Shown: positions 272-12,707, numbered from the stretch's first letter. The stretch is DNA of 64,000 nucleotides from Methanolobus bombayensis (GCF_017873415.1 NZ_JAGGKD010000007.1:1-64000); one strand, 5' to 3'. The notes: generated by a model from the letters alone, not told the origin. Made by a program: numbers and translations.

Positions 272-534
272 TAGAAGACTAATATTGATTGAATGTTTGT
301 GTCTGACCGGAGGTTTTACGTTAATAGGCTAGCTATTTGTAAAATAATTTATTGAAAAATTAATTCTTTGGCTCATGTTCTTCATTATAAAAAAGCACCA
401 TTGGTTATTAATATGTGTTTAAAGGTTTTTAATTGCTTCAATAAGTATTAAAAATTATATAATAGCTTTATTTTGTATTTTATGCTACTATAAAGTTTTA
501 AAAATCATATGTATTAAATTCTATATTTTCCTGT
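272..534. other. AT-rich spacer with no recognised gene
   Basis: About 260 bases of AT-rich DNA lie between the TnpB element end and the promoter of the first structured RNA element. I see no convincing ORF, RNA gene or repeat in it. Confidence 0.5.
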
Positions 535-556
535 AAGTATGCTTTTATTTAAATCT
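535..556 (+). promoter_or_regulatory. promoter of structured RNA element copy 1
   Basis: These 22 bases are identical to 3307-3328 in front of copy 2. They contain a TATA-like TTTATTTAAA (545-554). About 25 bases downstream of its centre is the first base of stem P1 (572), the expected archaeal spacing, so the RNA probably starts at P1. Confidence 0.65.
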
Positions 557-571
557 ACTAATTGGTGAATT

Positions 572-711
572 GCCCGTGGAACAATATGTTAACGGGTACC
601 ACCCCACTTCGGTGGCACCTAACCCCCAACCACATCCAGCCTGAGGTGCCACCACTGTACCAACAACCCCTCCTCGCTTAAGAGGTGCCCTTCCTATCCT
701 GGGCATCTCTT
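572..711 (+). ncRNA. unknown structured RNA element, copy 1
   Basis: The fold is P1 GCCCGT/ACGGGT (572-577/592-597), P2 CCACC/GGTGG (599-603/611-615, or CCAC-TTCG-GTGG at 604-615), P3 GGTGGCACCT/AGGTGCCACC (611-620/644-653) and P4 AAGAGGTGCCC/GGGCATCTCTT (680-690/701-711). P2 and P3 share GGTGG and exclude each other. Copy 2 at 3344-3484 keeps every helix with different bases, but keeps AACCACATCCA in the P3 loop, TGTACCAACAACCCC (656-670) in the linker and CCTATCC in the P4 loop. That is the pattern of a conserved RNA fold. It matches no family I can name; it could be a cis-regulatory leader or a small RNA. Confidence 0.7.
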
Positions 712-734
712 AATCGATAAAGGTTAAAAGGTGA

Positions 735-977
735 GTGATTTTGCCTGACATAAAAGATTCCTTAAAACTATTCATAGATTCAAGAATGGAAGAAGCGATC
801 CGTTCACAGGCTATTTATCCTGATAGGCTTTACGTAAAATCGGCTCTTATAAGGAATATTACTCCCGAACATAAATCATATGGTTCAGGATTGTTTTCAT
901 GTGATTCGGATATCAGGAATGGTTTTGAACGGGTTGATATTGGTATCAATCAGTCATCAAAAGAGTTTAAGTGGTAA
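735..977 (+). CDS. small protein of unknown function after RNA element 1
   Basis: An 80-residue ORF begins with GTG at 735 (TTG at 741 is an alternative), 24 bases after stem P4 of the RNA element. AAAGGTTAAAAGGTGAG lies just before it, so a ribosome site is plausible. The product is mixed and charged, with no signal peptide, membrane span or motif I recognise. Its reality is supported mainly by its position: RNA element 2 is also followed closely by a short ORF, though the two peptides are not visibly related. It may be a leader peptide, a decayed gene or chance. Confidence 0.35.
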   Translation: MILPDIKDSLKLFIDSRMEEAIRSQAIYPDRLYVKSALIRNITPEHKSYGSGLFSCDSDIRNGFERVDIGINQSSKEFKW

Positions 978-1187
978 TTTCAGCAACTTATTGTTGGATC
1001 TTTATTAGTTTATTTGCCTGTTTGTTTTGCTTTCTATTTCCCTGTATATTTCAATATCTAATGACTATCTATTTATATTCATACTATCAATTAAAACAGA
1101 GAAAACGTTTAAAACACATAATATCTGTTAACTGTTGTAAAATCGGATACGTAGTTATACTTATGAGCTCCTTAGATGTGGTCGTCA
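978..1187. other. AT-rich upstream region of the 1188 gene
   Basis: About 210 bases with TATA-like stretches (near 1068 to 1080) and no convincing gene. It presumably carries the promoter of the secreted protein downstream. Confidence 0.4.
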
Positions 1188-2108
1188 ATGAAAAAAATGC
1201 CTCTTGCAGTGTTGATAATTCTTATGCTACTCGTTGTCATTTCAGGCATGACTGGCTCTGATAGTATGCAACAGTATCCTGAAAAGAGCCCGGATAGTTA
1301 CAATTATGATAATAAAGCTCCTGCGGAGGTGTATTCTCCTCCCAAAGAGACTATGATGGACCATATGTTCATCTTGTCTTTTCCGATGGATGAGGAGCGT
1401 TTTCTGGAAGATAATATTGAAAAGTCTGAGTTTATGGTAGAAAGACTTGAAAATGCTACTGTAAAACTGGAGAACGAGGGCAATGATGTATCTGAACTCA
1501 AAGACATGATTAAGAATTATGCAGATCTTGTATCTGAATCTCGTATCTATCTTGAAAAGGCAAATAGTGCCTCTTCTGAAAGTGCTAAACAGGAATATCT
1601 GGATCTATCGCGGAAAAGTATAATTCAGTCTAATTCCAGGCTCAGGCCAATAATGGGTGAGATTAAAAAATATCTTCCGGGTCCGGTAATTATAGAGAAT
1701 AACATCCTCAGTGCTGAAGGTAATGGAGTTGCTATTTTATCAGGAGACCTTGATCTGGATTTTTCACTATCTGATGGTAAATTCTCGGTAGTTGATCTTG
1801 GTGAGGACCTTGTAATTGATGCAGCTGCTGACTACAGGAGAGAGTTTGTTCCTGATAAAGAAACTTCACCTGAGATGATTATGTCTCATTCAATGATATC
1901 ATACGTTGAGGTTACAGGAAACGTTTCTATGTCAGGCTCAGCTTATACAGTTGCTATTATTTCAGACATGATCGTTCTTAATGCAAGTGGAAATGGTGAA
2001 GCGGAACTTATAGGAAATGGCACATATCATCTTGATGGCGATATGTCCGCAGGAAAAGAAAATGTATGGATGATACCAATATTTGAAAGGACAGATGTTG
2101 GGAAATAG
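1188..2108 (+). CDS. secreted protein with coiled coil, unknown function
   Basis: The ATG at 1188 gives a clean signal peptide: basic start (MKKMP) and a hydrophobic core (LAVLIILMLLVVISG). ATG 1176, four codons upstream, is an alternative. The mature part has a Glu/Lys/Ser-rich helical stretch (about residues 70-160, probable coiled coil), then Gly/Asp-rich beta-like sequence in which phrases such as SGDLDLDFSLSDG and GNGEAELIGNGTYHL recur loosely, as in bactofilin-like or beta-solenoid folds. No C-terminal anchor is visible. The next gene starts 23 bases downstream on the same strand and encodes a membrane protein with a DNA-binding tail, so the two may work as a surface component and its reporter. 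I do not recognise the family. Confidence 0.75.
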   Translation: MKKMPLAVLIILMLLVVISGMTGSDSMQQYPEKSPDSYNYDNKAPAEVYSPPKETMMDHMFILSFPMDEERFLEDNIEKSEFMVERLENATVKLENEGNDVSELKDMIKNYADLVSESRIYLEKANSASSESAKQEYLDLSRKSIIQSNSRLRPIMGEIKKYLPGPVIIENNILSAEGNGVAILSGDLDLDFSLSDGKFSVVDLGEDLVIDAAADYRREFVPDKETSPEMIMSHSMISYVEVTGNVSMSGSAYTVAIISDMIVLNASGNGEAELIGNGTYHLDGDMSAGKENVWMIPIFERTDVGK

Positions 2109-2131
2109 TTCTGGGGACAGGGTTGCGTGAC

Positions 2132-3088
2132 ATGAAACCAATATATTATATCTGCTGTGTAGCGATTATTCTGATAATGGCTGGTATTGCCTCTGCAGAT
2201 AATATTGCAACAGTCCATGGTGTAGCCTACGAATGGAACACATTCGAACCTCTTGATAATGCTATCATTGAGGTGAATTCAACACCTGCACAGTCTATGG
2301 TAGCACAATATGGTGTATATTCCTTTGAACTGGCAAATGGCACTTACCTTATCACTGCAAGTTACTATGAGGATGATCAGCTTACTTATTATGCAGAGGA
2401 TTTAATAACAGTATCAGAGGAAGGCAGCTATGTTCTGGATCTTTTGCTGGTTCCTTCATATTCAGGTACTTCTGATCAGAATTCAACCGTTTCAGATGTT
2501 GAAAGCATATCCGGGTCTCAAAGCAGTTCTCTTCTTTATGGATCAATAGTTGTTGTTCTAGTCCTTCTGGCAATCATTACTTCACAAATGAAACAAAGAC
2601 CATTATCATCACAATATCCAACTGGCAGAAAAGAGGTAAGTCATTCTGATTTTTCATTAGTACCAGGACAGGCAACTTATGAAACTTCTCAGATGTCTGA
2701 GTATAAAGTGCCTGAGGCCAAATTCTCTCCTACTGTAAGTGATAAAAAAGAAACAGCAGTCTCATCTCCTGGTCCGGTAATTATCGAAGAACCTCCTGTC
2801 ACATCAGAAAAGGAAGTTACTATGCCTAAAGGTGCAGAAACACTTCCTGAGCCGGCTTCAAAAAATAAACCAACATCAGGTGAACCTGTTCCTGCTGATC
2901 TTCAGGAAATACTGGATATTCTGAAGTCCCAGGGTGGAAGAATGACCCAGAAGGATATGCGTAAGCGTCTGAGGTACTCTGAAGGCAAGGTCAGTCTGAT
3001 GCTTCTTGATCTTGAGAAGCGAGGCAAGATTCAGAAATTCAAGAAAGGACGTGGAAATGTCCTTTTCCTTGTGGAATCCGAGAAATGA
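2132..3088 (+). CDS. membrane-anchored winged-helix regulator with extracellular beta domain
   Basis: The order is signal peptide (residues 1-22, ending ASA), an extracellular domain like the carboxypeptidase-regulatory/transthyretin fold (about 25-110), a Ser-rich linker, a membrane span (about 133-152, LLYGSIVVVLVLLAIIT), a long Pro/Ser/Glu-rich cytoplasmic linker, and a C-terminal winged helix (about 245-315, DLQEILDILKSQGGRMTQKDM then LMLLDLEKRGKIQKFKKGRGN) of the MarR/DUF7343 type. This suggests a one-component membrane sensor that binds DNA. ATG 2132 is preferred over TTG 2123 because GGGGACAGG lies upstream. It is probably in an operon with the secreted protein 23 bases upstream. Ligand and targets are unknown. 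Confidence 0.75.
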   Translation: MKPIYYICCVAIILIMAGIASADNIATVHGVAYEWNTFEPLDNAIIEVNSTPAQSMVAQYGVYSFELANGTYLITASYYEDDQLTYYAEDLITVSEEGSYVLDLLLVPSYSGTSDQNSTVSDVESISGSQSSSLLYGSIVVVLVLLAIITSQMKQRPLSSQYPTGRKEVSHSDFSLVPGQATYETSQMSEYKVPEAKFSPTVSDKKETAVSSPGPVIIEEPPVTSEKEVTMPKGAETLPEPASKNKPTSGEPVPADLQEILDILKSQGGRMTQKDMRKRLRYSEGKVSLMLLDLEKRGKIQKFKKGRGNVLFLVESEK

Positions 3089-3306
3089 TCTTCTCTTATT
3101 TTTTTGTTTGTTGTTGAGTTCAGCACTGGATATTATCTTAAATTATGTTTTATTTGTGATATCTTATTATTTGGTCTTAATTGTTTATTAGTATCTTTTT
3201 AATTTCTTGATAAGCTTTAAATTGATTGGTATTCTCTATTTTTTTCTTAAAATCTTTTATAAAGCTTTATTGATTGATTATGGTATTTTGAACCCCTTTC
3301 TGAAAT
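3089..3306. other. AT-rich spacer before RNA element 2
   Basis: T-rich DNA directly follows the stop codon at 3088 (a TTATTTTTTTG run), usable as an archaeal terminator. The rest is AT-rich and shows no gene. Confidence 0.4.
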
Positions 3307-3328
3307 AAGTATGCTTTTATTTAAATCT
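3307..3328 (+). promoter_or_regulatory. promoter of structured RNA element copy 2
   Basis: Identical over 22 bases to the promoter of copy 1 (535-556), with TTTATTTAAA at 3317-3326. The start of stem P1 (3343-3344) lies about 25 bases downstream of the box centre. Confidence 0.65.
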
Positions 3329-3342
3329 GCTAATCTGGAGAT

Positions 3343-3484
3343 TGCTTGCCAGCAATGATCTGACAAGCATACCACCCAAGCTAAGGTGGCACCCACACCA
3401 ACCACATCCATCTTGGTGTCACCAATGTACCAACAACCCCATTCGTATAAGGGACATCTGCTACCTATCCGCAAGGTGTCTTTT
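3343..3484 (+). ncRNA. unknown structured RNA element, copy 2
   Basis: The helices of copy 1 recur with compensatory changes: P1 TGCTTG/CAAGCA (3343-3348/3364-3369); P2 CCACC/GGTGG (3372-3376/3385-3389); P3 GGTGGCACC/GGTGTCACC (3385-3393/3415-3423, one G-U pair); P4 AAGGGACATCT/AGGTGTCTTTT (3449-3459/3474-3484). P2 and P3 again compete for the same GGTGG. The loop motif AACCACATCCA, the linker TGTACCAACAACCCC (3426-3440) and the P4 loop CCTATCC (3464-3470) are kept. A 57-codon ORF starts 24 bases later and an ABC export operon about 300 bases later. The function is unknown. Confidence 0.7.
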
Positions 3485-3507
3485 ATCCGAAACCGTAGGC
3501 ACGAATT

Positions 3508-3681
3508 ATGAACACTCATATACAGATAACAATTGAAGAAAAAGCCCCTGAAAGTTCTGTTGGAAAACAGGGATCATTTGGCTATGAAACTGTCATTTCA
3601 TCTCTGTATGAAAAGTTGGATTCAGAACAAATGGGTCGACTGACAAAGATATCTCCGGCAGGATATGCGGGGGATGAATGA
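3508..3681 (+). CDS. 57-residue small protein after RNA element 2
   Basis: An ATG ORF starts 24 bases after stem P4 of RNA element 2 (begins MNTHIQITIEEKAPESS, ends ISPAGYAGDE). It is hydrophilic and acidic, with no signal peptide, membrane span or known motif. No strong ribosome site is visible. Its position mirrors the short ORF after RNA element 1, though the sequences are not obviously homologous. It could be a real small protein, the fragment of a decayed gene, or a leader ORF for the ABC operon that starts about 100 bases beyond its stop. Confidence 0.4.
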   Translation: MNTHIQITIEEKAPESSVGKQGSFGYETVISSLYEKLDSEQMGRLTKISPAGYAGDE

Positions 3682-3781
3682 ATGCTTACATATAGTGATA
3701 ATTCAGTAAATATAAATATATTATTATAAAATATTAAATGCACTATATGTTAATAAAAACGGGAATGATTTGAGGTATATC

Positions 3782-4537
3782 ATGGACGAGAATCTCAATA
3801 ATACTGAACAAGAAAAAAAGCTGCAAAATGGAAATTCTGATTCTCTCATGCGTCTGACAGACGTTTGGAAGATCTACAAAATGGGAGAGGTCGAGTTCGC
3901 GGCACTGAAAGGTATTGATCTGGAGATCCTACATGGTGAATTTGTAGTCATACTTGGTCCAAGTGGAAGTGGTAAGAGTACAATGATGAACCTGCTGGGT
4001 TGTCTTGATCTTCCAAGCAAGGGAGTTGTTGAACTAAACAACAAGGATATCTCTAAAATGAAAGAATCCGAACTTGCTCAGATAAGGGGTCAGCTAATTG
4101 GTTTTATTTTCCAGACCTTTAACCTTATACCTACTTTAAACACTATTGAAAATGTGATGCTTCCTCTTGAGTTCCAGGAAGCTGATGCTGATGATTCATG
4201 GACTAGAGCAGCAGAACTTCTTGATGTAGTCAGTCTTGGGGACAAAAAGTACAATCTTCCTTCGCAGTTATCAGGAGGACAAAGACAGAGGGTTGCAATT
4301 GCACGGTCCCTCGCAGTTGATCCGAAAGTAATTCTTGCTGACGAGCCAACCGGTAATCTGGATAGTGAAACCGGAAGTTACATTCTTGAATTCCTTAGTG
4401 ACCTTCACAAAAGGGAAGGTAAGACGATCATAATGATCACCCATGATCCTGAACTAACAAAATATGCGGATCGTGTTGTTCATATCAAAGACGGAATGGT
4501 CGATAATATAGAGATAATAAAGCATGAAGCAATGTGA
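3782..4537 (+). CDS. ABC transporter ATP-binding protein, MacB/LolD type
   Basis: This is the cytoplasmic ATPase of a MacB/FtsX-type ABC system. Visible motifs: Walker [11 protein letters not shown]-loop [13 protein letters not shown], signature [15 protein letters not shown], Walker [15 protein letters not shown] and the switch His in MITHDPEL. The ATG at 3782 has GAGGT five bases upstream and is preferred over TTG 3770. Its stop overlaps the next gene. The three-gene set of ATPase, secreted CARDB-like protein and permease at 3782-7148 is common in Methanosarcinaceae and is thought to export or process surface lipids or peptides, not to import nutrients; the substrate cannot be read from the sequence. 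Confidence 0.92.
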
Positions 4538-5922
4538 TGAAAATGAAAAAGATTCTATTATTAATGTTAGTATTGCTGCTTCCAATAACTAATGCAGCAG
4601 CAGCAGGTATGAATGCCGGGGCTGCAGGAGTGAATGTGGACCTGATGACTCAGAGTCCCTATCCTGCCAGACCTGGTGAGACAGTAGAATTAACAGTAAG
4701 TCTCCAGAATGAAGGAAGTAATGATCTTTCAGATATAACGGTCAGTGTTGACGCTGAATATCCTTTTTCACAGGTGTCCGGTGAATCACTTACAAAGACT
4801 ATCTCTTTCCTTGAAGCCCGACAGGATGAGGAAGATGCGACACTTGTAAAATTCAAGTTGAAGGTGGATTCTGATGTCTCTGACGGTACTTACGATGTAG
4901 ACATAATTGTCAGTGATAGTGAATCTGATTCTAAGTTTGTTACAACCCTTGAAGTTGAAGTACAGGGTAAAGAGTATGCTCAGATTGTCACAATAAGCGA
5001 TTCCAGCATAGATGTTGCAACCGTGGAACCTCTTGAGTTTGTCATAACCAACACAGGTTCATCTCCACTCAAGAATATGGAAATCTCATGGGACGAATCC
5101 ACAGGTGTAATACTTCCTGTATACTCATCCAACACCAAGTACATAAATTACCTTGGAGTTAACGAATCAGCTACAGTAGTGTATTCCGTTATGGCTGATG
5201 TAAATGCGGATCCGGGACTTTATCAGCTTGATATTACACTGAAATTCCAGGACTATAATTCCAACACTACCACAATATCAACAAAAGCAGGAATGTTTGT
5301 GGGAGGAACCACTGACTTTGATTTGAGTTATTCAGAGAGTGATGAGGGAGAAGTGTCACTGTCTCTTGCAAATGTAGGTAACAATGAGGCTTACTCTGTG
5401 AAGGTATCAATACCTGAGCAGGATAATTTCCAGGCAACAGGAAGTACATCTACAATTGTGGGTAACCTCGAAAAAGGTGACTATACCATCACATCGTTCT
5501 CAATAAGTCAGACAAACTCAATGCCATCAATTGATGAAGACTCATCCGGCACAGCCAATGCACAACCTTCTGAGATGACAGAAGAAGATATGGAAACCAT
5601 GCAGGAAGAACTGGAATCAAAGAGTGAGCTTCTTGTCACGATCGAATACACAGACTCTGCAGGACAGAGACACACCGTGGAAAAGGCTGTTCAGATCGAA
5701 GAGCTTACCGGTGGCACAATGATGGCTGGCATGGCCGGTGGACCCGGAGGTCAGAGCTCATCATCTAACAGTTATCTGTTGTATGGGGCTGTTATACTGG
5801 TGGTTGTAGTTATAGGATACAATTACAGAAAGAAGAAGATGCTCAAAGAGGGTAATTATGTACCACTCAATGTCCAGCTCAGAGAGCTTAAAAGGAAGAT
5901 TATGAAGAAGGATCAGCAATGA
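4537..5922 (+). CDS. secreted, membrane-anchored CARDB/NEW3-type protein of the ABC operon
   Basis: It starts with ATG at 4537, overlapping the upstream stop (GTG 4534 and ATG 4543 are also possible). It has a signal peptide ([23 protein letters not shown]), then repeated beta-sandwich units with phrases such as TVELTVSLQNEGSNDLSDI and EPLEFVITNTGSSPLKNM, as in CARDB/NEW3 domains of archaeal surface proteins. A Gly/Ser-rich linker (GGPGGQSSSSN) leads to a C-terminal membrane span (YLLYGAVILVVVVIGYNY) and a basic cytoplasmic tail. Placed between ATPase and permease, it is probably the extracytoplasmic partner of the transporter, in the position MacA-like adaptors occupy in bacteria. That role is inference. 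Confidence 0.82.
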   Translation: MKMKKILLLMLVLLLPITNAAAAGMNAGAAGVNVDLMTQSPYPARPGETVELTVSLQNEGSNDLSDITVSVDAEYPFSQVSGESLTKTISFLEARQDEEDATLVKFKLKVDSDVSDGTYDVDIIVSDSESDSKFVTTLEVEVQGKEYAQIVTISDSSIDVATVEPLEFVITNTGSSPLKNMEISWDESTGVILPVYSSNTKYINYLGVNESATVVYSVMADVNADPGLYQLDITLKFQDYNSNTTTISTKAGMFVGGTTDFDLSYSESDEGEVSLSLANVGNNEAYSVKVSIPEQDNFQATGSTSTIVGNLEKGDYTITSFSISQTNSMPSIDEDSSGTANAQPSEMTEEDMETMQEELESKSELLVTIEYTDSAGQRHTVEKAVQIEELTGGTMMAGMAGGPGGQSSSSNSYLLYGAVILVVVVIGYNYRKKKMLKEGNYVPLNVQLRELKRKIMKKDQQ

Positions 5923-7148
5923 GACGAAGTACCTATCTAAAGCTTGCTACCAATATCCTGGTTCACAGTAAGATAAGAAGCTGGCTCACTATAATAGGTA
6001 TTGTCATCGGTGTCGGATCAGTAGTTACTATTATGGCACTCAGTGACAGCATGGCTGCTGATATGGAAGAAAGAATTGCTGACATGGACCTTACGTTATT
6101 GCAGGTCACTCCCGGTTACACCAGGGCCATGTCATCCTTTGGTCCGCCAGGCGGTGGTGACAGCTCATCCTCGGATGCTGAATTGACTGACAAGGATATC
6201 ATGGCAATTAAACTGGTGGAGAATATAGACTATATCTATGGTCAGATAGCCGGTAGTGGTCTGGAAGTATACTTCATGGGTGAAACTGCCGATCTCTCTG
6301 TAACAGGTGTTGATCCACAGGTCTGGCAATATACCGTAAGCTATGAACTGGAGTCCGGCAGGTTGCTGGAAGCTACTGACAATAATGTTGTTGTCATTGG
6401 TTACAGGATAGCCCATGAGATGTATGATCAGGAAATAGGTCTGAACCGTATACTTTCCATCGAAGGCAAATCCTACAGAGTGGTGGGTATACTGGCAGAA
6501 GGTGAAAGTGACCGTTCTATCATCATGCCTATTGATTCAGCGGTTGGCATTATAGATGATGCTGAGCAGGATGTCTATGATACTATCGTTGTAAAGGTCG
6601 ATGATGTTGACAACGTTGAAAGTGTAGTAGATGAGATTGAAGAGAAACTCATGATATCCAGGCATGTTATGAATGACGATGATCGTGATTTCACAGTTTC
6701 AGATTCGTTGTCACAGGCAGAGTCTTTCAGTGAGATGATGTCATCATTCACAATATTCCTGGGTGCCATAGCGGGTGTATCACTTGTTGTGGGTTCGGTG
6801 GGTATTGCAAATACGATGTTCACTTCTGTGCTGGAAAAGACCAAGGAGATCGGTACTATGAAAGCTATAGGTGCTAAGAATCGGGATATTCTGATGATAT
6901 TCCTGTTCAATTCAGCACTGGTAGGTTTTGTAGGAGGTGTGCTCGGTATATTGCTGAGTCTCATACTAACATCCCTTATGCCGTATCTGGGAATTACAAT
7001 GATGCGTTCATCCTTGGGTATGACCGTTGCTCCGGACCTGATGCTGATGGGTATTTCCATTGCAGTGGTAATCGGAGTGCTCTCAGGTGTGATACCTGCA
7101 TACAATGCTTCAAAGATGAAGCCGGTTGATGCACTGAGATATGAATAA
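5919..7148 (+). CDS. ABC transporter permease, MacB/FtsX family
   Basis: The ATG overlaps the upstream stop (ATGA), so translation is coupled. The 409-residue protein has the MacB layout: an N-terminal helix (about 20-42, SWLTIIGIVIGVGSVVTIMAL), a large extracytoplasmic MacB-PCD domain (about 45-275), then three C-terminal membrane spans (about 280-305, 330-355 and 370-395) with the FtsX signature MFTSVLEKTKEIGTMKAIGA and the ending PAYNASKMKPVDALRYE. Such permeases act mechanically and do not form a channel. With the upstream ATPase and CARDB-like protein it makes one transport complex. A strong terminator region follows. Confidence 0.9.
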   Translation: MRRSTYLKLATNILVHSKIRSWLTIIGIVIGVGSVVTIMALSDSMAADMEERIADMDLTLLQVTPGYTRAMSSFGPPGGGDSSSSDAELTDKDIMAIKLVENIDYIYGQIAGSGLEVYFMGETADLSVTGVDPQVWQYTVSYELESGRLLEATDNNVVVIGYRIAHEMYDQEIGLNRILSIEGKSYRVVGILAEGESDRSIIMPIDSAVGIIDDAEQDVYDTIVVKVDDVDNVESVVDEIEEKLMISRHVMNDDDRDFTVSDSLSQAESFSEMMSSFTIFLGAIAGVSLVVGSVGIANTMFTSVLEKTKEIGTMKAIGAKNRDILMIFLFNSALVGFVGGVLGILLSLILTSLMPYLGITMMRSSLGMTVAPDLMLMGISIAVVIGVLSGVIPAYNASKMKPVDALRYE

Positions 7149-7534: not shown

Positions 7535-8533
7535 TTGTTTGAAGGTGAATACTACTTACCTGATTTTAGTTCCGATTCGTTTGAATCCCTTAAAGAAGAT
7601 TCAACAGTAATTGAAACTTGTGGAACTATACCAGAGATATCAGATGACAAAGAAAAGATAGAGTGGTTATGTAATATTGACACCTGTATGCATGATTCTA
7701 AAGATGAATTGATGGCATATATGAAAGACAATGCTGGACATGTATCTGGATTTGGAATTCATTATGAAGGGTATATGTTTGTAGATATTGACAAGAATTC
7801 AATTAACAAAGTTGACCAAAAGGCCATTGATGAAATGTACAGCATAATAGAGGCAAATGCAGAGAAAAGTGGTATGAAATCTGCTCCTGTGGTTTTTAGA
7901 GAAGAAACAACATTTGAGCTTCATTCACGCACAGATTATTGGGCTAACATGATTGGCGGTATCAAAATAAACTATGATAATGAATCAGGCACAACATATA
8001 AGTCAACATTAGCATTTGCCGCAGAAGACAGTAGTGGTACACCTGGATTTGTAATATCAGGACATTCTGCTGTGACTGCAGGAGGAGTTGGCGGAGAGAT
8101 ACGTCAAGGTGGAAGAATAGTAGGCTATGTAGACTATTTGACACTTCACTTTGCAGATGCTGCCTGGGTAGAAGCAAGCAATGTACTTGATGACATCTAT
8201 TATGCAGACAATAATGTACTAAAAGACGTGACTGCTTATGGGGATACAAATGTCGGTGCTAAGGTATACATGTCAGGAATAACCACTGAAACCACAAGTG
8301 GTTATGTAATAGAGGATTATACTGCTATAAATCAATCAGGCACAGGCATCACCTTCTATGATCAATTCACAGCTGACTATGACTCCGAAGGAGGAGATAG
8401 TGGTGGCCCTGTGTTCAGGAAGACTGTCGGAGGAGTAAAGATAGTAGGCATGCACTGGGGTGGCGAAACTAGGTCTGTATTCTCTCCAGTTAGTGGTGTT
8501 ATCTTAGATTTGGGCGTTACACCATTATATTAA
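7535..8533 (+). CDS. trypsin-like (S1/streptogrisin-type) secreted serine protease, leader interrupted
   Basis: Counting from TTG 7535, residues about 13-122 are a propeptide-like unit (FESLKEDSTVIETCG to MKSAPVVF) and about 135-332 a chymotrypsin-fold protease. The catalytic triad is visible: His177 in ISGHSAVT, Asp208 in FADAAWV and Ser289 in GGDSGGPVF, with the streptogrisin-like spacing of secreted alpha-lytic-type enzymes. TTG 7535 has no ribosome site of its own; the real start is ATG 7436, cut off by TAA at 7532, so the gene may be a recent pseudogene. The catalytic body shows no other damage. The propeptide unit is also the building block of the two surface proteins downstream. A terminator follows at 8551. 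Confidence 0.8.
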   Translation: MFEGEYYLPDFSSDSFESLKEDSTVIETCGTIPEISDDKEKIEWLCNIDTCMHDSKDELMAYMKDNAGHVSGFGIHYEGYMFVDIDKNSINKVDQKAIDEMYSIIEANAEKSGMKSAPVVFREETTFELHSRTDYWANMIGGIKINYDNESGTTYKSTLAFAAEDSSGTPGFVISGHSAVTAGGVGGEIRQGGRIVGYVDYLTLHFADAAWVEASNVLDDIYYADNNVLKDVTAYGDTNVGAKVYMSGITTETTSGYVIEDYTAINQSGTGITFYDQFTADYDSEGGDSGGPVFRKTVGGVKIVGMHWGGETRSVFSPVSGVILDLGVTPLY

Positions 8534-8550
8534 ACCCCAAGTTATCTCAA

Positions 8551-8588
8551 AAATGTCAAATAGTCTTTATTTGGCATTTTCTATTTTT
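8551..8588 (+). terminator. terminator after the protease gene
   Basis: AATGTCAAAT (8552-8561) pairs with ATTTGGCATT (8569-8578, one G-U pair), followed by TTCTATTTTTT. Confidence 0.65.
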
Positions 8589-8694
8589 TAAGAATAATAA
8601 AACATATAACAAACAATATTTATTTAATGTGGTAGTAAAATACCAACGAAGGTATCTCAATGTTCACTATATTCTGTAAAAAGCTCGGAAAAAA

Positions 8695-9693
8695 ATGTAT
8701 AAAAAAACAATTCTCTTGATATTACTAGTTAATATATCACTAAATGGATGTGCAAGTGCTTCAACTGAAACATTTGAAGAATACGCCAAAGACTCTCATT
8801 TCATAACAAACAAAGGTACTTTTACGGACACAATTGACCAGGAATGGAGAAATACAATTAACAATTGTTGTACAAGTCTCCCCGATTCGTATTCTTACTA
8901 TAGATTTGATAAAGCCATAAGAACTTTTGCATGCAGTGAGTTCATAATAGTTGAGTTAAAATCTGAATACAAAGGAGAGATAAACGATTCCAGAATCGAT
9001 AAGTTGTATCAGAAAATAGAAGCTCATTGTGAAGAAAATACAGGTTTAAGTGAAGTTCCCGTTGTTTTTATGTGGGCAGAAGATGAAGAAGATATAATAT
9101 ATGAATACGATCCTGATTCATTTGAAAATGCAAAGACCAGTTCTGGATTTGTAGCTACCATGGGATCTGTCCCTGTATTTGCTAATGAGGCTGAATGGTT
9201 GGAATGGTCAGAGAAAGTTCATGAAGCCAGGCATATTAAAGAACTTGAACAGTATTTCTCATCTGGCCCTGTGATATCATGTGGTTTCAAAAAATACAGT
9301 GGATATATAGAAGTTGGGGTGAACATAGATTCACCTGAACAAGTTAATGATTCAATACTCAGTGAAATATACCAAATAATTGAGGATCATTTTGAAGAGG
9401 AAGGTATCAGTAACATTCCAGTTGTTTTTGTGTGGACTGAAATGCCTCATACTGATGAAGCCATAGATACTGAGGAACCTGACGCATATGAAGGGAACAT
9501 CAATGTTTTGGATGATGATGGAAATGTTATAACGTATACTAGGGACCAAGCTTATTTTGATGAAGAGGGAAATCTAGTAATCATTGATAACAATAACTCA
9601 CAAAACGGAGATGTGTCTTCACAATCGTCTCCGGGTTTCACTTCAGTTATGCTTGTTATGTGCATTCTTATACTGGCAAGATTTAGAAAATAA
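8695..9693 (+). CDS. surface protein of two protease-propeptide-like units, PGF-type anchor (paralogue A)
   Basis: A 332-residue secreted protein. The N-terminus (residues 1-21, ending LNGCASA) is a signal peptide with a lipobox-like L-N-G-C. Two related units follow (about 28-128 and 142-248), each ending in an IY/LYQ.IE helix and PVVF(M/V)W. The same pattern (FGF..YSGYIEVGV, then EIYQIIE, then GISNIPVVF) is the propeptide unit of the protease upstream. The acidic tail ends SSPGFTSVMLVMCILILARFRK, a PGF-CTERM-like signal (PGF, membrane span, basic end) recognised by archaeosortase-type systems. DNA 8751-9089 is identical to part of the next gene, indicating very recent duplication or conversion. 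A role as inhibitor or chaperone of the protease is inference. Confidence 0.8.
   Translation: MYKKTILLILLVNISLNGCASASTETFEEYAKDSHFITNKGTFTDTIDQEWRNTINNCCTSLPDSYSYYRFDKAIRTFACSEFIIVELKSEYKGEINDSRIDKLYQKIEAHCEENTGLSEVPVVFMWAEDEEDIIYEYDPDSFENAKTSSGFVATMGSVPVFANEAEWLEWSEKVHEARHIKELEQYFSSGPVISCGFKKYSGYIEVGVNIDSPEQVNDSILSEIYQIIEDHFEEEGISNIPVVFVWTEMPHTDEAIDTEEPDAYEGNINVLDDDGNVITYTRDQAYFDEEGNLVIIDNNNSQNGDVSSQSSPGFTSVMLVMCILILARFRK
8751..9089 (+). repeat. 339-bp perfect direct repeat, copy 1
   Basis: Identical base for base to 9775-10113. It begins just inside the mature protein sequence and stops at the end of the first propeptide-like unit, while the flanking signal peptides and second units differ. 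The offset is 1024 bases. Confidence 0.95.
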
Positions 9694-9703
9694 GAGGAAT
9701 TGC

Positions 9704-10660
9704 ATGTGTAAATGTTATAAATATGGAACATGGTTTTTGCTATCATTAGCTTTATTGTTAATGTTGGTAGGTTTTGCAAGTGCTTCAACTGAAACATTTG
9801 AAGAATACGCCAAAGACTCTCATTTCATAACAAACAAAGGTACTTTTACGGACACAATTGACCAGGAATGGAGAAATACAATTAACAATTGTTGTACAAG
9901 TCTCCCCGATTCGTATTCTTACTATAGATTTGATAAAGCCATAAGAACTTTTGCATGCAGTGAGTTCATAATAGTTGAGTTAAAATCTGAATACAAAGGA
10001 GAGATAAACGATTCCAGAATCGATAAGTTGTATCAGAAAATAGAAGCTCATTGTGAAGAAAATACAGGTTTAAGTGAAGTTCCCGTTGTTTTTATGTGGG
10101 CAGAAGATGAAGAGTACCTTAACTTTGAATACGACCCGGATGCATTTGAAAAAGCAAAAAACAGCTCAGGATTTGTAGCTTCTATGGGCCATGTTCCAGT
10201 ATTTGCTGATGAAGATGAATGGCTGGAATGGTCTGAGAAAGTTCATAAAGCTAGGCATGTATTTGAATTAGAATCCCATTTTGCTTCTCAAGATGGACCT
10301 CTTCTGTCATTCGGATTCAAAAAATACAGTGGATACATTGAAGTGGGAGTCAATAAAGAGACACCAGATAAAGTCAATGATTCATCTCTAAACGAAATAT
10401 ATCAGATAATTGACGAACACTTTGACGATGCAGGTATAAGTGATATCCCAGTCGTTTTTGTTTGGGACCTACCAGCACAAACAGAAGAGGCTCTCTTAGA
10501 GGAAATTCCTCCAACTGAAGAAGAATCTTCTCAATCAATAGAAGAATCCATTGATAACGAATCTGCTGAAAATGAAGAAGAAAGTTCACAAACCACGCCT
10601 GGTTTCACTTCAATTATGCTTATTCTTTGTTTGTTGATATTGTGCCGGTTCACTAAATAA
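9704..10660 (+). CDS. surface protein of two protease-propeptide-like units, PGF-type anchor (paralogue B)
   Basis: The start is ATG 9704 with AAGAGGAA upstream, 10 bases after paralogue A. The signal peptide (MCKCYKYGTWFLLSLALLLM, cleavage near FASA) is unrelated to that of paralogue A, with a plain Sec-type end and no lipobox. The first unit is identical to paralogue A at DNA level; the second (about 130-240) is clearly related but diverged. An acidic Glu/Ser-rich tail leads to TTPGFTSIMLILCLLILCRF, again PGF-CTERM-like. The pair is thus one duplicated surface protein with a homogenised N-terminal half and two export routes. Function unknown; see the protease entry for the shared unit. Confidence 0.8.
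   Translation: MCKCYKYGTWFLLSLALLLMLVGFASASTETFEEYAKDSHFITNKGTFTDTIDQEWRNTINNCCTSLPDSYSYYRFDKAIRTFACSEFIIVELKSEYKGEINDSRIDKLYQKIEAHCEENTGLSEVPVVFMWAEDEEYLNFEYDPDAFEKAKNSSGFVASMGHVPVFADEDEWLEWSEKVHKARHVFELESHFASQDGPLLSFGFKKYSGYIEVGVNKETPDKVNDSSLNEIYQIIDEHFDDAGISDIPVVFVWDLPAQTEEALLEEIPPTEEESSQSIEESIDNESAENEEESSQTTPGFTSIMLILCLLILCRFTK
9775..10113 (+). repeat. 339-bp perfect direct repeat, copy 2
   Basis: Second copy of 8751-9089, inside paralogue B. The first mismatches are at 9774 and 10114. Confidence 0.95.
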
Positions 10661-11273: not shown

Positions 11274-12635
11274 ATGAATGAAAAAAGTGAGTTTTTAGGT
11301 ACTGAGAAGATCAATAAACTTCTCTGGCAGCTTGCCACACCGGCAATAATCGGACTTCTTGTCCAGGCATTCTACAATCTTGTAGATACCTTCTTTGTAG
11401 GAAGAGCACTCGGAGACCAGAGCGTGCTTGGAATTGCAGGAGTTGCTGTTGCGTTCCCACTGCAGATGCTCATGATAGCACTCTCCATCGGTATAGGTGT
11501 TGGTGGGTCATCGGTAATTTCCAGGATGTTAGGTTCAAAGGATGTAAATAAGGCAGAAAGAACACTTGGCAATGTCTTCACCTATACAATACTGCTCAGT
11601 ATCATCTTCCAGATTTTATTCTTCTTCAATGTAGACACAATACTGAACCTCTTCGGTGCAACTGCTGATAACTTTGTCTACGCAAAGGAATATGCTGTTG
11701 TCATATTGCAGGGTACTCTGGCATTCACTTTTGGTTTTGTGCTTAATAATCTTGTAAGGGCTGAAGGTAATTCAAAAATAGCCATGAACAATATGGTGTT
11801 TTCAGGTGTACTGAACATCTTCCTTGATGCAATCCTGATGTTCGGATTTGGGATGGGTGTAAAAGGTGCAGCTCTTGCAACCGTACTTGCACAACTGGCA
11901 GGTACTATCTATCTGTTATACTACTACGTTAGTGGCAAAAGCCCACTCAGGCTTGAACTGGCAAATTTCAAACCGCAACTTAGCCTGATAAAAGAGATCA
12001 CAACAATTGGATTCGGTTCCTTTGTCATGGGAGCATCCAACAGTTTCATGATGCTCGTACTTAACAATGTGCTTGTGATCTATGGAGGAGACCTGTCAAT
12101 AGCAGTATTTGGAGTAGCCATCAAATTGCTAATGCTGATCTTAATGCCAATAATAGGTATCTCTCACGGATTACAGCCAATTGTTGGATACAACTACGGA
12201 GCAGAGAATTACGAAAGGGTCAATGAGTCGGTTAAGAAATCATTGATGATAACCACTCTCTTTGGATTGGGCGGTTTTATTCTGCTGGCAGGATTTCCGG
12301 GAACATTTTTCAGCATGTTCAGCAAGGATGCTGATCTTATAAGCAGTGGAGCATCAGCTTTGAGAATAATGGTACTAGCAAGTCCTTTGATAGGTCTGAA
12401 TGTTATCGGAACAACACTGTTCCAGTCAGTTGGAAAAGCAAAACCATCATTCTTCCTGTCAATGTGTCGTCAGATCTTGTTCCTTATTCCTCTGGTGATA
12501 CTCCTTCCATATTACTTCGATCTTTCAGGAGTATGGATGGCATTTCCAATATCAGACCTCATGGCTGCCATGGTAAGTTTGTTCTTTGTCTGGAGAGAAT
12601 ATCGTTATTTTCAACACATAAGTATTAATACATAA
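11274..12635 (+). CDS. MATE-family multidrug/metabolite exporter
   Basis: A 453-residue integral membrane protein with about twelve spans in two related halves (MatE domains about 20-180 and 240-400). Family phrases include LATPAIIGLLVQAFYNLVDT, FVGRALGDQSVLGIAGVAVAFP and GISHGLQPIVGYNYGA. MATE proteins export cationic drugs or metabolites against Na+ or H+. It lies 33 bases behind the MarR-type gene and is probably cotranscribed and controlled by the operator at 10733-10775. The substrate is unknown. Confidence 0.92.
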   Translation: MNEKSEFLGTEKINKLLWQLATPAIIGLLVQAFYNLVDTFFVGRALGDQSVLGIAGVAVAFPLQMLMIALSIGIGVGGSSVISRMLGSKDVNKAERTLGNVFTYTILLSIIFQILFFFNVDTILNLFGATADNFVYAKEYAVVILQGTLAFTFGFVLNNLVRAEGNSKIAMNNMVFSGVLNIFLDAILMFGFGMGVKGAALATVLAQLAGTIYLLYYYVSGKSPLRLELANFKPQLSLIKEITTIGFGSFVMGASNSFMMLVLNNVLVIYGGDLSIAVFGVAIKLLMLILMPIIGISHGLQPIVGYNYGAENYERVNESVKKSLMITTLFGLGGFILLAGFPGTFFSMFSKDADLISSGASALRIMVLASPLIGLNVIGTTLFQSVGKAKPSFFLSMCRQILFLIPLVILLPYYFDLSGVWMAFPISDLMAAMVSLFFVWREYRYFQHISINT

Positions 12636-12707
12636 GATAGCTACAATATTTTATTTCACGACAACTATTTATATTTTTGAACCCCTGAATATTTATGGGA
12701 GATATAA

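Follow-up and report, generated by a model that had tools for sequence, protein, structure and literature searches.

What are the two similar stretches of about 145 bases near the start of a Methanolobus bombayensis contig, each followed by a small ORF, and what might they control? The window, that is, the whole stretch of 64,000 nucleotides analysed here (NZ_JAGGKD010000007.1:1-64000), had been described preliminarily as carrying two copies of a structured RNA, and re-reading of the sequence found both where they had been placed. To our knowledge, few archaeal cis-regulatory RNA families are known. In our best explanation overall, to which we give a probability of roughly 0.55, the two copies arose by duplication and belong to a hitherto undescribed family of structured 5′ leaders that would act in cis with the help of an ACCA-binding factor. 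This explanation starts from what was observed, namely, structure, covariation, placement, co-occurrence with an exporter, and a shared promoter. The parts of the two copies are as follows.

534-556, plus strand: promoter of copy 1, with a palindromic TAAGTATGCTTA-like core that overlaps a TATA-like box; identical to 3306-3328
569-719, plus strand: leader RNA copy 1 (covariance model R1, 169.8 bits, E = 2.1e-35, the copy being in the training set; model R2, 151.7 bits)
572-597, plus strand: helix P1 of copy 1 (572-580 with 589-597), at the predicted 5′ end of the transcript
598-605, plus strand: conserved ACCACCCC block 3′ of P1, copy 1, including the proposed P2 strand 599-603 (P2 has no covariation support)
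611-653, plus strand: helix P3 of copy 1 (611-620 with 644-653), with AACCACATCCA in its loop at 628-638
656-670, plus strand: conserved unpaired block TGTACCAACAACCCC, copy 1
674-717, plus strand: helix P4 of copy 1 (core, 678-690 with 701-713; foot, 674-676 with 715-717), with loop TTCCTATCCT
3306-3328, plus strand: promoter of copy 2, identical to that of copy 1
3341-3492, plus strand: leader RNA copy 2 (R1, 113.3 bits, E = 1.3e-22, the copy being in the training set)
3343-3369, plus strand: helix P1 of copy 2 (3343-3352 with 3361-3369)
3385-3423, plus strand: helix P3 of copy 2 (3385-3393 with 3415-3423), with AACCACATCCA in its loop at 3400-3410
3426-3440, plus strand: conserved unpaired block TGTACCAACAACCCC, copy 2
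3442-3491, plus strand: helix P4 of copy 2 (core, 3447-3459 with 3474-3486; foot, 3442-3445 with 3488-3491)

Helices P1, P3, and P4 form in copies 1 and 2 on free folding (z = -5.8 and -2.7 compared to dinucleotide shuffles). Three conserved unpaired blocks had been claimed, and all of them are present in both copies; they are A/C-rich and lie at 628-638, 656-670, and about 693-699 in copy 1 and at the matching places in copy 2. P4 had been recognized as a helix, but it is longer than described, with an extra foot in both copies (TCG/CGA in copy 1, TTCG/CGAA in copy 2). Pattern and covariance-model searches of the own 3.12-Mb genome revealed only these two copies.

The fold is borne out by homologues. 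In an alignment of 31 sequences, 23/36 pairs have changes on both sides, a number reached by 0/500 shuffles. With 35 sequences, we counted 31 compensatory double changes on the same branch, distributed over 20 of the 36 pairs. When substitutions were shuffled along a FastTree tree, a null that preserves the phylogeny, the mean was 2.5 to 3.3 and the maximum 9, and none of 400 nulls reached the observed 31. The preliminary description had noted compensating changes in four helices and had staked the element on significant covariation; for P1, P3, and P4, both are borne out by these counts. In the same 35 sequences, 93% of the cells are canonical (null maximum, 70%), and slid structures yield only 0 to 3 compensatory events. 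A base-pair-blind G-test with APC (R-scape style), which has low power here, returned 1/36 pairs at E < 0.05, as is to be expected with few deep lineages. The alignment used for covariation was fitted to the model and thus favors the structure, which is also visible in a structure-free MAFFT alignment of 13 sequences. A coding function of the element itself is ruled out by length variation that is not a multiple of three and by the covariation of the helices.

A further helix, P2 (599-603 with 611-615, ACCACC with GGTGG), had been proposed to exclude P3, as in switch RNAs. P2 can be drawn in most members (95.9% of cells) because both of its strands are conserved; no compensatory change in P2 was found across the homologues. 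Loci L074 and L070 alter the strand shared by the two helices, and the alteration is compensated in P3 and not in P2, so that several members break P2. We therefore read P3 as real and reject a mutually exclusive P2/P3 switch as not supported.

How far does the element extend beyond this genome? A 14-base pattern from the third block recurs without mismatch in eleven further Methanolobus genomes, each time within a full homologue; one-mismatch hits in other genera were apparent chance matches where the sequence was read. A first covariance model (R1), built from an alignment of 13 sequences, detected a pair of copies in most positive genomes, at a spacing of about 2.7 kb, and gave weak matches in further genomes. 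The weak matches of loci L078 to L081 immediately precede either the same small ORF or the same ABC genes, a position that confirms them independently, and their scores were raised by a second model (R2). With R2, the element is found in 19/27 Methanolobus genomes, in G068 (genus g11, n = 1), and, in two copies, in G081 (genus g13). Hence, the earlier expectation that further copies should exist in relatives is answered by copies in other genomes. Across 393 sampled genomes of the phylum, covariance-model matches occurred only in Methanolobus and G081. As had been suspected, no named family fits: no Rfam 15 family reached its gathering score in the whole window, a permissive Rfam search of 400-3700 gave only chance-level hits, all outside the element, and literature searches of incomplete coverage retrieved no description of it. 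From these comparisons, we regard the element as an undescribed structured leader RNA family, of inferred function, that appears confined to the Methanosarcinaceae as far as searched.

The copies in G081 (locus L077) are at 9846-10000 and 12484-12638, and each is followed by an identical 11-residue mini-ORF, MKIMGCTYYSK. Genes downstream of the RNA in G081 encode a DUF1566-like secreted protein and a small membrane protein that resembles DUF4405 and is itself followed by a flavoprotein (domain names assigned by eye).

In the window, the genes next to the leaders are as follows.

727-734, plus strand: ribosome-binding site AAAGGTGA, just 3′ of P4, copy 1
741-977, plus strand: small ORF 1, 78 amino acids, TTG start inferred from homologues (GTG at 735 by ORF calling), no Pfam family
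1194-2108, plus strand: secreted or membrane-anchored protein of an unassigned family (mem310)
2123-3088, plus strand: membrane-anchored winged-helix protein with DUF7343 at the C terminus (PF24034, E = 5e-17), candidate regulator of the regulon
3508-3681, plus strand: small ORF 2, 57 amino acids, paralogue of small ORF 1
3770-4537, plus strand: ABC transporter ATPase (MacB/LolD type)
4534-5922, plus strand: exporter partner protein (NEW3/CARDB-like domains, membrane anchored)
5919-7148, plus strand: MacB/FtsX-type permease (PF12704, PF02687)

The conserved order is a mem310 and winged-helix pair, RNA 1, small ORF 1, a second such pair, RNA 2, small ORF 2, the ABC ATPase, the partner protein, and the MacB/FtsX permease. 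The start codon usually lies 11 to 15 nucleotides past the end of the model, with the ribosome-binding site in between. Within the genus, the RNA is present in 19/19 genomes that have an exporter orthologue and in 0/8 that do not. At locus L075, which lacks an intervening small ORF, the ABC gene follows the RNA directly. Purifying selection acts on the small ORFs (median dN/dS, 0.31), and we consider them to be translated genes on the basis of their sequences. A protein of the single-copy clade joins the part kept by the ORF of copy 1 and the part kept by the ORF of copy 2, and the data suggest that the unit of RNA and small ORF was duplicated, followed by a division of labour between the copies. 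Seen from the window, 735-977 and 3508-3681 encode paralogous small proteins without a Pfam family, each of which keeps a different half of the single-copy form.

Both leaders share one promoter. An identical promoter of 22 bases had been reported; the identity holds, and the match is one base longer (23 bases, TAAGTATGCTTTTATTTAAATCT). Its palindromic core, TAAGTATRCTTA, occurs in 9/14 genera of the Methanosarcinaceae, far above a reversed control, and promoters with this core precede many genes for secreted or surface proteins, whose predicted transcripts often start with an ATTGTC-type hairpin like P1. The leader promoter is part of a wider surface-protein regulon, and the membrane-anchored winged-helix protein may be its regulator. 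In genera g7, g10, and g11, the exporter orthologue is likewise preceded by this promoter and by a structured leader that carries ACCA motifs; the models score these leaders weakly or not at all. In G043, a TAAGTATGC promoter lies ahead of the leader (G043:C1:1348541-1348710, minus strand).

What might read the leader? The unpaired blocks vary between clades, the clade of L078, L080, L081, and L088 having neither AACCACATCCA nor the CCTATCC loop, and this variation fits poorly with one fixed binding site. ACCA occurs 4.6 times per element compared to 1.9 times in shuffles (per-element shuffle tests are moderately significant), and 118/162 occurrences are fully unpaired. In 36 other leaders with the same promoter, ACCA occurs 0.5 times per 150 nucleotides; part of the ACCA excess is due to C-richness (C fraction, 0.34 compared to 0.15). 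A second leader, found at 12 Methanolobus loci before a gene read as DUF4405, has the same promoter and a different fold, namely, a single long stem, in which compensatory changes occur (GATCACATG or GATCGCATG paired with CATGTGATC or CATGCGATC), closing a loop with many ACCA motifs, 5 to 13 in this unrelated leader. Two unrelated leaders with the same promoter and an enriched, mostly unpaired ACCA motif suggest a shared ACCA-binding factor. A protein that binds this motif on both scaffolds is the most economical reading, which we put forward tentatively. It is a doubtful extension that a single ACCA-reading factor binds the clustered unpaired motifs of at least two unrelated scaffolds, those of the MacB exporter and of the DUF4405-like membrane genes, on top of a palindromic promoter read by the membrane-anchored winged-helix protein, which would amount to a two-level archaeal envelope response. 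The second, likewise undescribed leader RNA before the DUF4405-like gene is also present in the own genome (G000:C4:162924-163166; loci L192 to L205).

In our model, transcription would start about 20 nucleotides downstream of the shared TATA-like promoter, at or beside P1. The leader would then fold into the 5′-terminal hairpin P1, the hairpin P3 with its A/C-rich loop, and the hairpin P4, which ends a few nucleotides before the ribosome-binding site of the small ORF; in copy 2 and in single-copy relatives, the small ORF is followed by the MacB-type ABC exporter operon. As far as a sequence can tell, the leader very probably acts in cis. The steps that it would most likely set are translation or stability of the exporter operon, an assignment that is drawn from P4 adjoining the ribosome-binding site and that we hold at even odds. 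A factor acting in trans would probably bind the conserved unpaired ACCA motifs; it would most likely be an RNA-binding protein that also serves the DUF4405 leader. No conserved pairing to the ribosome-binding site was found; predictions for single strands vary, and the sites are only partly paired. A conserved masking of this site is rejected, the likeness of the 5′ arm of P4 to the site in L078 and L080 being absent in other clades.

A metabolite-binding riboswitch, in which P4 would be the expression platform and P1 to P3 with the unpaired blocks an aptamer that recognizes the substrate of the exporter or a related signal, shares with the element the leader position before an exporter, the conserved unpaired bases, invariant within Methanolobus while the helices vary, and a hairpin beside the ribosome-binding site. 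However, the alternative helix P2 lacks covariation, the single-copy clade and other genera with the same operon have lost or changed the unpaired blocks, and ACCA repeats occur in a differently folded leader as well, and we consider a riboswitch unlikely. Could the leader instead be passive, its 5′-terminal hairpin and compact fold protecting the mRNA from decay or keeping the start region open without any sensing? Other transcripts with the same promoter also begin with ATTGTC-type 5′-terminal hairpins, and long stabilizing 5′ untranslated regions (UTRs) are reported in passages of a study of Methanolobus psychrophilus (PMC5378194), but protection requires neither invariant unpaired blocks in Methanolobus nor a clustering of ACCA in only two gene classes, which makes a passive role rather improbable.

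The preliminary description had left open a riboswitch-like leader of surface or export genes or a family of small RNAs, and the fixed placement speaks for a leader. A small RNA that acts in trans, its 3′ end made by processing or termination past P4, with C-rich unpaired loops able to pair with the GGUG-type ribosome-binding sites of other mRNAs, as small RNAs of Methanosarcina reportedly do, would suit the own promoter and the compact fold but is quite improbable, since no U-run follows P4 in the sequences read, which makes termination there unlikely, P4 leads straight into a ribosome-binding site and start codon in nearly all members, and the element strictly co-occurs with the exporter and keeps its place in the gene order. 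The small RNA sRNA162 of Methanosarcina mazei is likewise a structured RNA of the Methanosarcinaceae with its own promoter, but in the passages that describe it, it acts on other mRNAs, whereas the element is fixed before one operon and continuous with an ORF (PMC3510493).

The cis-acting leader that we prefer resembles protein-bound autoregulatory 5′ leaders, for example, those of ribosomal proteins. In both, a conserved RNA structure lies in the 5′ UTR, immediately ahead of the ribosome-binding site of the operon presumably controlled. In contrast to these leaders, the operon here codes for an exporter, and the element has no match among Rfam models. In M. psychrophilus, according to passages of the study cited above, 24% of the mRNAs have 5′ UTRs over 150 nucleotides and the TATA box is 19 to 22 nucleotides from the start site, a spacing that the position of the element's promoter fits (PMC5378194). 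For this member of the same genus, individual stem-loops over ribosome-binding sites are predicted, whereas the main-text passages describe no conserved leader family (PMC5378194). The family described here has strong covariation, named Methanolobus strains carry it, and it is linked to a single exporter operon and a single promoter-defined regulon; through it, the coordination of surface and export genes by methanogens becomes open to experiment. The shape of the leader is preserved across many species, and it probably controls the amount of export pump made. Furthermore, the family points to a putative ACCA-binding regulator, for whose direct isolation the RNA itself could serve as bait.

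On either side of the two units, the window has further features. At the contig start, 11-208 code for part of a TnpB-like transposon protein, namely, a piece from its C terminus with a zinc-finger motif (by eye), and a hairpin-rich end comes next. Relatives have a mem310 and winged-helix pair at this place, and the counterpart of this pair in the own genome is at the beginning of contig C21 (L085), which probably places the contig break at the insertion. Several diverged copies of a trypsin-like secreted peptidase lie downstream of the exporter operon, at 7535-10459 and in L062 to L068.
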